From assembly GCA_013349615.1 (NCBI GenBank), contig DUZJ01000006.1, positions 1 through 64,000 of the forward strand: a stretch of DNA of 64,000 nt. The letters are read 5' to 3'. Below the pieces are notes generated by a model that was given only the letters and a program-made list of their open reading frames with translations, was not told the origin of the DNA and searched no databases. This stretch comes from Planctomycetota bacterium (GTDB taxonomy: Bacteria > Planctomycetota > Phycisphaerae > Sedimentisphaerales > Anaerobacaceae). Position numbers and translations under genes: made by a program. Of this stretch, positions 5,133-42,200 are shown in pieces (the first letter of the stretch is position 1; each line of letters begins with the position of its first letter).

Positions 5133-5238
5133 CCCGCACCTACTTTGAGATTCCAACGCAAATCCCCGCTTTTGTGCTTCGAACAACAATCAAGTTTCAT
5201 CTGTCGGGTCAACGTTAGCATCTCAAAGTAGGTGCGGG
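5133..5238. repeat. Hairpin insert C1 within rnpB (18 bp perfect arms)
   Basis: CCCGCACCTACTTTGAGA at 5133-5150 pairs with TCTCAAAGTAGGTGCGGG at 5221-5238. Confidence 0.9.
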
Positions 5239-5479
5239 AAGCGACCTACCTGCTGTTAATACCCGGGCCGAGTACCAGCTGCTTGGTCTTGCAGGCGGTG
5301 GGGTTTACCCTGCCGACACCGTCACCGGTGCCGCGGTGCGCTCTTACCGCACCATTTCACCTTTGCCTGTGTCCCGACGAATCGAGGCCATCGGCTGTGT
5401 CGTTTCTGTGGCACTTTCCCGCGAGTTGCCTCGGGTGGCCGTTAACCACCACCGTGCCCTGTCCTGCTCGGACTTTCCT

Positions 5480-5584
5480 CCCCGCACCTATTTGGTTCAT
5501 TGTCTGCAACCACAATTGCTGCGATATCTCTCACCTTTTTCCTCAGACACTCTTGGTTCGACATTAAGCCAAATAGGTGCGGGG
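5480..5584. repeat. Hairpin insert C2 at the P3 position of rnpB (16 bp perfect arms)
   Basis: CCCCGCACCTATTTGG at 5480-5495 pairs with CCAAATAGGTGCGGGG at 5569-5584; arm shares CCCGCACCTAyTT with C1. Confidence 0.9.
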
Positions 5585-36060: not shown

Positions 36061-36066
36061 GGCGAG

Positions 36067-36126
36067 CCCCGTTAGAAATTCCAGAAATGGGGGATTATCA
36101 TAGAGAACGGAAGATTTCTAACGGGG
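36067..36126. repeat. Family A palindromic element, copy A2 (inside disrupted gene)
   Basis: CCCCGTTAGAAATTccagaaatgggggattatcatagagaacggaaGATTTCTAACGGGG. Confidence 0.9.
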
Positions 36127-36542
36127 CGAGCGGTTGCCTTAATGAAGTTCCGCCGAAGGCGGTTAATTAAACTCATAAATTTTAAAATCTATTCTGGGAT
36201 TCAACGATCTGGCAAGCCAATTTTCTAATTCTTCATTTCCAATCTTATAGTGCTTGGGTTTGAACTTTGTCCCCACCACTTTATGTGTTTCATTCTCAAT
36301 TCCATACACAAGGTAAGCATTTTTCTTTTCATATAAGCAGGCCGAGTTGGACAATGCTGATATGTGTTGGCCTATTTTCCCCCGGTTTATGTAATTGACT
36401 TTGAACTCAACCCACTCAGTTTCTTTTCGCAAAGCTCTTAATTCATCCAGGGTCTTTTTTAAGTTCCTTGCATTCATCTTATAAGCCATTTTGTTTTACA
36501 CGTTAATTCTGGGTTTAATTCTACTCGTTACTGTCTTGAAAA

Positions 36543-40118: not shown

Positions 40119-42200
40119 ATGGAAACCTCACACGAAAAATGGGAGTTACTAAACGGGGTAGACAGTCCCGACGACGTCAAGAAGCTTCCGGTGCGCCAGC
40201 TAAACACCCTGGCCGACGAAATACGCCGCTTCATTCTCAACTCGGTCGCGCAGACCGGCGGACACCTGGCCAGCAATCTCGGTGTGGTGGAATTGACCTT
40301 GGCGCTGCACTATGTCTTCGATTTCAAAAAAGATAAACTGCTCTGGGACGTCGGCCATCAATGCTATACGCACAAAATCATTACCGGCAGGAAAAACAAG
40401 TTCAAGCTCCTCCGCAAGGCTGGCGGGATAAGCGGCTTTCCAAACCCGGCTGAAAGCGACTACGACCAGTTCGTCGTCGGCCATGCAGGGACCGCCGTAG
40501 CAACCGCAATCGGGATGGCAATAGGGCAAACGCAGCAAAAGAAAAATAATAAAATCGTGGCGCTGGTCGGCGACGCCAGTATCGTTAACGGCGCTTCTTT
40601 CGAGGCGCTCAATAATCTCGGACTGGTCAAGAGGCAATTACTAATCGTCCTCAACGACAACTCGATGGCAATAGACCCGACGCAAGGGGCAGTAGCAAAA
40701 TATTTCTCCAAAGTGCGGCTGAGCCAGACATACGACGATTTGCGAAAGACCACTCATAACATCCTCGAGCACTTGCCGGTCATCGGCAAGAGTGTTGATG
40801 AGGCCGTTGAAAGGATTAAAAAGGGTATTCGAATGGTCCTGCCGGCCAGCCAGATGTTTGAAAGCCTGAACATCCCATACTTTGGTCCCGTTGACGGACA
40901 CGATATCGGCTCACTTATACAGTTGTTCAACGCGCTTGCCGAATTAGAGCACCCGGCAATTCTGCACGTTTACACAAAGAAAGGACAAGGTTTTCATCCG
41001 GCCGGTTCCCAGCCCAGCCCCGTTAGAAGCCCCGGCCTTACTAAAGCAGAGCCTATCTATCCTGCTTCTAAAGGGGCCAGCAGATTTCACTCGACCGGCC
41101 CATTCAAGATAAACAACAATAAAATCGGAGACAGAGTTAAGGTTGAGGCGGTCCAGGATACAAGCCCCGTTAGAAATTCTATAAGGGGGGACATCATACA
41201 GAAAGGGAAGATTTCTAACGGGGCAAGCAGACAAAGCTTCACCAGCGTATTCGGCGAGCATCTGGCCGATTTAGCGGAAAAGGATGACAAAATTGTTTCT
41301 ATAACTTCGGCCATGCGCGATGGCACGGGGCTGATGGAATTTCGCAAGAGATTCGGTGACAGATTCTATGACGTGGGTATTGCCGAAAGTGCGGCTGTGG
41401 ATATTGCGGCCGGGCTGGCCAAGAGCGGCTTAAAGCCGGTCGTCTGTATCTACTCGACCTTTTTACAGCGAAGCTTTGACCAGATATTCCAGGAAGTGGC
41501 CCTGCAGAATCTGCCGGTTGTCTTTTGTGTCGACAGGGCCGGCGTTGTCGGCTCGGACGGGCCAACTCACCACGGTTTAATGGATATCGGCTTTTTACGA
41601 ATGATGCCCAATATGGTACTGACGGCGCCTGCGGATGAGGTTGAGATGAAACTGGCTTTGGAATTCGCATTGAGCGTAGATAAGCCGGTCGTTATTATAT
41701 ATCCGAAAGACTTCGTTCCGAGCCGGAAGTCTGTCCGGGCCGCCTCCGCCAGGCCGTTCAAATTAGGTAAAAGCGTGGTTGCCAAAAAGTCAAAAGATTC
41801 AGCGCTCGCGATTGTCAGCTACGGCAGTATCTTGACAGAATCGCTGGAAGCGGCCGAGCTGCTGGCTAAAGAGGGCATTGCGGTTGATGTGATAAATGCC
41901 CGTTTTGCCGCTCCCATTGATGAAAAAATCATCCAGTTATTAGAGAGGGGCAAAGGTATAATAACGGTAGAAGACCACACGACCGCCTGCGGGTTCGGCT
42001 CAGCCGTGCTCGAAATGGCCGCAGCAAAAACAGCGGTCAGCAAACAGCGGAAAGCGGACAGTAAAAAACTAAACGCTATACGCATGCTCGGGGCACCGAG
42101 GAAGTTCATAAAACACGACACCCGCCCGACGCAGCTTTCCCAGGCCGGTATAAATGCCGTTAAAATAGCTCAGACAGCAAAAGAAATGTTACACGCTTGA
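40119..42200 (+). CDS. dxs: 1-deoxy-D-xylulose-5-phosphate synthase with two in-frame palindromic-element inserts
   Basis: GGHLASNLGVVELTLALHYVF, DVGHQCYTHKIITGR, GDASIVNGASFEALNN, DGPTHHGLMDIGFLRMMPN. Confidence 0.97.
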   Translation: METSHEKWELLNGVDSPDDVKKLPVRQLNTLADEIRRFILNSVAQTGGHLASNLGVVELTLALHYVFDFKKDKLLWDVGHQCYTHKIITGRKNKFKLLRKAGGISGFPNPAESDYDQFVVGHAGTAVATAIGMAIGQTQQKKNNKIVALVGDASIVNGASFEALNNLGLVKRQLLIVLNDNSMAIDPTQGAVAKYFSKVRLSQTYDDLRKTTHNILEHLPVIGKSVDEAVERIKKGIRMVLPASQMFESLNIPYFGPVDGHDIGSLIQLFNALAELEHPAILHVYTKKGQGFHPAGSQPSPVRSPGLTKAEPIYPASKGASRFHSTGPFKINNNKIGDRVKVEAVQDTSPVRNSIRGDIIQKGKISNGASRQSFTSVFGEHLADLAEKDDKIVSITSAMRDGTGLMEFRKRFGDRFYDVGIAESAAVDIAAGLAKSGLKPVVCIYSTFLQRSFDQIFQEVALQNLPVVFCVDRAGVVGSDGPTHHGLMDIGFLRMMPNMVLTAPADEVEMKLALEFALSVDKPVVIIYPKDFVPSRKSVRAASARPFKLGKSVVAKKSKDSALAIVSYGSILTESLEAAELLAKEGIAVDVINARFAAPIDEKIIQLLERGKGIITVEDHTTACGFGSAVLEMAAAKTAVSKQRKADSKKLNAIRMLGAPRKFIKHDTRPTQLSQAGINAVKIAQTAKEMLHA
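41018..41076 (+). repeat. Family A element, copy A4, in frame inside dxs
   Basis: CCCCGTTAGAAGccccggccttactaaagcagagcctatctatcctGCTTCTAAaGGGG; encodes SPVRSPGLTKAEPIYPASKGAS. Confidence 0.85.
41165..41223 (+). repeat. Family A element, copy A5, in frame inside dxs
   Basis: CCCCGTTAGAAATTctataaggggggacatcatacagaaagggaaGATTTCTAACGGGG; encodes SPVRNSIRGDIIQKGKISNGAS. Confidence 0.95.

Follow-up and report, generated by a model that had tools for sequence, protein, structure and literature searches.

Two hairpins in the RNase P RNA gene

The window analysed here (the whole stretch of 64,000 nucleotides) carries a full-length class A RNase P RNA gene, rnpB, on the minus strand at positions 5603-5041 (Rfam RF00010, 256.3 bits, model positions 1-367). 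Its score lies above the gathering cut-off and the RNaseP_bact_a core is intact, as judged from the covariance model and a same-genus alignment. It is the single rnpB match in the whole assembly (3.77 Mb in 157 contigs, 80% complete). An earlier note on this DNA had listed the expanded RNase P RNA under 5133-5584; this interval runs from one insert to the other, but the gene itself is larger.

Two palindromic elements lie in the gene, both on the minus strand. The first constitutes helix P3 (5480-5584, 105 nucleotides), its arms, 5480-5495 and 5569-5584, forming a perfect stem of 16 bp. The second stands between P15 and P18 (5133-5238, 106 nucleotides), with arms 5133-5151 and 5220-5238 and a perfect stem of 19 bp. 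Both hairpins are real and, according to the Rfam class A match, sit at the helices to which the earlier note had assigned them; the stems are perfect as described, but their lengths had been given as 18 and 16 bp, respectively. Next to the inserts, conserved parts of the ribozyme are intact. Immediately 3' of the P3 insert comes GAGGAAAGTCCG, belonging to the 5' side of the P4 core (5469-5480, minus strand; sequence and alignments), and the P15/P18 insert is closely preceded on its 5' side by the conserved 3' strand of P15, GGTAGGTC (5243-5250, minus strand; sequence and alignment).

The arm sequence CCCGCACCTAYTT is common to both inserts, and its matches without mismatch in the window are these four arms only. 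The two stems are also the two longest perfect inverted repeats in the window (arms of at least 13 and spacer of at most 120 nucleotides), and the inserts have fold z-scores of -7.5 and -8.8, with none of 200 shuffles equally stable. The loops, as had been noticed before, differ: they are unrelated, with an inner identity no higher than in shuffled controls.

A dispersed palindrome family

The arms are not confined to rnpB. Allowing at most one mismatch, a genome search for the arm pattern, which the earlier note had put forward as a check, returned 35 + 32 matches, against 6 + 6 for a reversed-pattern control. About 27 complete palindromes with the ends CCCGCACC...GGTGCGGG are present in this MAG, and the reversed pattern gave none. 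Copies of this family are 45 to 106 nucleotides long, and many of them are intergenic or lie in non-RNA sequence. Their outer 8-9 bp are highly conserved and the interior is variable, the same ends enclosing several interior classes (TAYTTTGAGA, AATTG, AAAA); on contig C123, one element is nested inside another.

The closest relative of the P15/P18 insert is a copy on another contig (C154:2907-3012), from which it differs at only 5 of 106 positions over its whole length (95% identity); other pairs of copies have loop identities of 82-94%. The loop of the P3 insert matches nothing above the level of shuffles. The suggestion that one insert was copied into the other therefore finds no support in this genome.

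A single imperfect CCCGCACCAATTT hairpin at 2325-2365 of the window seems to belong to the AATT class, as a short copy with the family's ends. On contig C23 (L084-L086), at least seven elements occur within 45 kb; the cause of this cluster is unknown, and the contig carries a flagellar gene (FlgI-like, by eye). We considered a 387-residue ORF lying between two elements on C23 as a carrier transposase and rejected it, since by eye it reads like FlgI.

Absence of the inserts in the same genus

In three genomes of the same genus (G015-G017), rnpB contains neither insert, and its core otherwise aligns. P3 is there a short stem of different sequence, and the short native P15/P18 hairpin reads CCCGGTATATCGGG in two of them (G015, G017) and CCCGGATATCGGG in the third (G016). 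The rnpB studied here has lost its native P3, and in place of the 6-nucleotide native loop at P15/P18 it has the interior of the element, a CCCG/CGGG foot being common to both. On the evidence of this sequence comparison, the inserts are recent in this gene.

This absence, together with the complete palindromes elsewhere in the genome, supports the proposal that a palindromic element had entered rnpB twice. It is also the opposite of the outcome named beforehand as refuting that proposal, namely arms conserved by position with no other copies: three same-genus genes have no inserts, and copies abound. Simple insertion, however, does not describe the event, as the elements are present but native hairpins or loops were replaced by them. 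Nearly all of the genomes used in these comparisons are draft MAGs or species representatives, and no RNA data accompany them.

Elements in other RNA genes of the family

A copy on contig C116 lies inside 23S rRNA, 98 nucleotides from its 3' end; about 25 relatives have a short hairpin at H98, which is replaced here by the element. In rnpB of other members of the bacterial family, elements occur at P3 in G057, at both P15/P18 and P19 in G063 and at P19 in G030, while G022 has a P19 element with a GG interior. Decayed remnants are found in rnpB of G044, G069, G070 and others.

Six of the 82 family-wide copies, from four genera, are located in rnpB, against 0.011 expected by length. If copies are confined to intergenic DNA, assumed to represent 12% of the genome, the expectation becomes 0.09 and a 65-fold excess remains; under the same assumption and with this genome left out, three genomes have rnpB hits against 0.07 expected (P ~5e-5). 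Part of the enrichment could reflect retention, since losing an element imprecisely from an essential RNA is lethal.

Two further observations concern P3 in these genomes. About 1 kb from its main rnpB, G069 has another RNase P RNA match, which is weaker (62 bits; contig C241, L072) and has a P3 hairpin of its own. In several genera (G061, G062 and the second gene of G069; loci L036, L072 and L077), P3 consists of a different hairpin, CCCCCGCTGCTTCGCTTTTGCGAAGCAAAACGGCGGGGG; a similar one occupies the L094 slot in G017 (L174), and this type is possibly another mobile palindrome.

Occurrence in other phyla

A search of 84,980 species genomes for P3 helices ending in GGTGCGGGG before AGGAAAGTCCG yielded 58 records. 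Because 9 outer bp on one side are fixed by the search itself, only the interior of the elements and their other copies can serve as evidence. About 20 of the 58 records have a long palindromic P3, and these belong to Planctomycetota, Omnitrophota, Cloacimonadales, Spirochaetes, Nitrospirae, Muproteobacteria, Kiritimatiellae and Patescibacteria. The full palindrome pattern is present in 13 of 22 long-P3 genomes, in up to 24 copies, and the Cloacimonadales arm CCCCGCACCTACTTTGA is identical to copies in this genome. A phylum-wide pattern search was not used for enrichment, because GC-rich planctomycete genomes match about as often as the control, by chance. A shared mobile palindrome had been proposed as the source of the unusual helix expansions of planctomycetes; the palindrome itself is supported, but the phenomenon extends to other phyla.

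Several rnpB genes hold elements at P3 plus P9, P12 or P19, with two to four per gene (helix names in other phyla were assigned from neighbouring conserved sequence). P3 and often P9, P12 or P19 are occupied in this way in Omnitrophota, Cloacimonadota, Spirochaetes and other Planctomycetota. The P3 and P19 copies of G110 are 96% identical and the P3 and P12 copies of G104 95% identical, whereas the same helix is less alike between related genomes (90% and 78%). Copying inside rnpB has thus happened.

Of the four copies of G110, none lies outside an RNA gene: rnpB holds three, and the fourth is in 23S rRNA, at a site that we take to be helix H25 on the basis of the E. coli sequence. In the spirochaete G097, an element replaces the variable arm of tRNA-Ser, and ARAGORN does not call this element-bearing tRNA. 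Structured RNA is not the sole harbour, though, as no Rfam family was found at the other loci scanned in the Omnitrophota genome G101. In another Omnitrophota genome, G091, a ZTP riboswitch with its apparent terminator hairpin is immediately followed downstream by an element (L337, 611-772).

How the elements may move

Inverted repeats are present at the ends of the elements, and no target-site duplication is visible at testable sites, in a comparison between species rather than strains. What these sites do have in common is missing native sequence: the 6-nucleotide P15/P18 loop, the H98 hairpin, 9 nucleotides at a coding gene and 37 nucleotides beside the C154 copy. The coding site (L100) is the one clear in-frame case, with 66 nucleotides in and 9 out (net +57) and a 650-codon frame that stays open. 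At two intergenic slots, sister species hold different palindromes between the same flanks. At one of them (L088), the body found in this genome is 89% identical to its own L091 copy and that of G017 is 96% identical to its own C108 copy, whereas the two bodies agree with each other only at chance level.

The dispersal of the palindromes, the near-identity with the unlinked C154 copy, the absence from the same genus, the replacement of hairpins and the independent occurrence in rnpB of other genera and phyla all argue for a mobile element. The two hairpins in rnpB are probably copies of a non-autonomous palindromic element with ends CCCCGCACC...GGTGCGGGG, which lodges preferentially in existing hairpins, above all in the helices of structured RNAs; the exchange step is inferred. 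This targeting is not absolute, given the many intergenic and non-RNA copies.

The simplest reading of the slot data, again an inference, is an exchange of hairpin bodies via single-stranded intermediates. Hairpins sharing a C/G-rich foot (CCCGC/GCGGG) would have the element copied between them, perhaps when single-stranded hairpins undergo template switching or gene conversion in the course of replication or repair. As the foot would be kept and only the body swapped, no target-site duplication would arise. The RNA would tolerate the change in that the insert only lengthens a peripheral helix, from which RNase III might or might not remove it. No enzyme or intermediate has been identified, and this mechanism is inferred from the pattern only. 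In a broader and more tentative form, which we would not yet favour over its negation, mobile hairpins of several phyla swap bodies through a common C/G-rich foot, RNase P RNA being a favoured harbour, and could be one of the main sources of helix expansion in this RNA and, to a smaller degree, in the variable regions of rRNA and tRNA.

A transposase acting on the conserved ends also remains possible. The elements would then be ordinary MITEs, with the CCCCGCACC ends as terminal inverted repeats for an unidentified transposase, and copies in RNA genes would have landed at random, been tolerated and become impossible to lose. We regard this as unlikely, though by no means excluded. Conserved outer ends around a variable interior of several sequence classes are what it would lead one to expect, as is the nested element on C123, and the genome does contain genes for single-strand Y1 transposases. 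However, none of these Y1_Tnp genes is flanked by element copies, the rnpB enrichment exceeds what tolerance alone would predict, and orthologous slots are refilled with local bodies. The lack of target-site duplications in the between-species comparison and the loss of native hairpins or loops at the sites also speak against it, even if later local deletions next to an insertion on the 8-9 bp inverted ends could mimic replacement.

Could the arms instead have been kept for a function, such as protein binding, pairing between P3 and P15/P18, or RNase III processing? Cross-pairing between the arms of one insert and those of the other would be possible (inverted pairs I3 and I4), and several rnpB genes have at least two inserts with the same arm. 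Yet the same arms are found at protein-coding and intergenic loci, and the inserts are missing from close relatives and have decayed to remnants in others, which leaves this possibility with very little support. That these are ordinary rnpB helix expansions, with arms alike only through favoured GC-rich stems, is scarcely credible: helices P3, P12 and P19 do vary in length and many bacteria have short GC-rich P3 stems with similar feet, but this reading is refuted by the identical arms, the whole-element near-identity with the intergenic C154 copy, the other genomic copies and the absence from three same-genus species.

Relation to known elements

The closest precedent for palindromic elements in RNA helices is offered by the Rickettsia palindromic elements (RPEs). 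As described in a review (PMC2229807), these dispersed palindromes have inverted ends and a length of about 105-146 bp, occur in-frame in proteins and have been reported, in Rickettsia, from RNase P (M1) RNA and from tmRNA (the same review, citing Ogata 2002). The present elements are likewise dispersed, multi-copy palindromes of around 100 nucleotides that occupy structured RNAs (rnpB, 23S rRNA, tRNA-Ser) and, in one place, an open reading frame; this likeness is one of form, without sequence comparison. They differ in occurring in other phyla, in their CCCCGCACC ends and in reaching two to four copies per rnpB (P3, P9, P12, P15/P18, P19). In addition, native hairpins are here replaced and swapped between species, and the 23S helices H25 and H98 and the variable arm of tRNA-Ser are affected as well.

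A second parallel is found in 23S intervening sequences (IVSs), extra stem-loops in variable helices such as 25 and 45 (PMC2801512, PMC4990558). The H98 copy of this genome and the H25 copy of G110 are extra 23S stem-loops too, except that here a single element family is common to 23S rRNA, rnpB, tRNA and intergenic sites. By analogy, then, the present elements work like both RPEs and 23S IVSs, without any claim of sequence kinship to RPEs. While RPEs in rnpB and tmRNA are a known precedent, the ends, the cross-phylum range, the occupancy of several helices and the swapping of hairpins appear to be new. This is provisional: our literature search found no account of CCCCGCACC palindromes or of multi-helix occupancy in rnpB, and nothing relevant on rnpB with MITEs or on insertions in planctomycete RNase P, but most subscription journals were outside its scope.

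With these elements, lineage-specific helix expansions in an essential ribozyme acquire a concrete source, and an expanded helix can be the trace of selfish DNA; annotators and structural biologists should not take such helices as conserved architecture. The same RNA, bearing from none to four inserts at defined helices, offers natural experiments, and hairpin-to-hairpin copying is a testable mechanism for very short, gene-less selfish DNA.

REP and BIME elements, which are mobilised by RAYT (Y1) transposases, are dispersed, mostly extragenic palindromes. REPs measure 20-40 bp, and most carry a GTAG or CGTC tag at one end (PMC3733652). The present elements are longer, have neither tag in their flanks and occur in essential RNA genes. 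A RAYT/REP origin was rejected, the Y1_Tnp genes found not being associated with the element.

Two palindromes of other sequence were also noted. One family, with arms GCCCCGTTAGAAAT and perfect 14 bp stems, has two copies of about 62 nucleotides in the window (36066-36127 and 41164-41224). The other, GTAGGGGCGGTTCGCGAACCGCCCCTAC, is REP-like and occurs repeatedly in this genome, including in the flanks of the copies L089, L084 and L097; it is possibly the target of the Y1 transposases.
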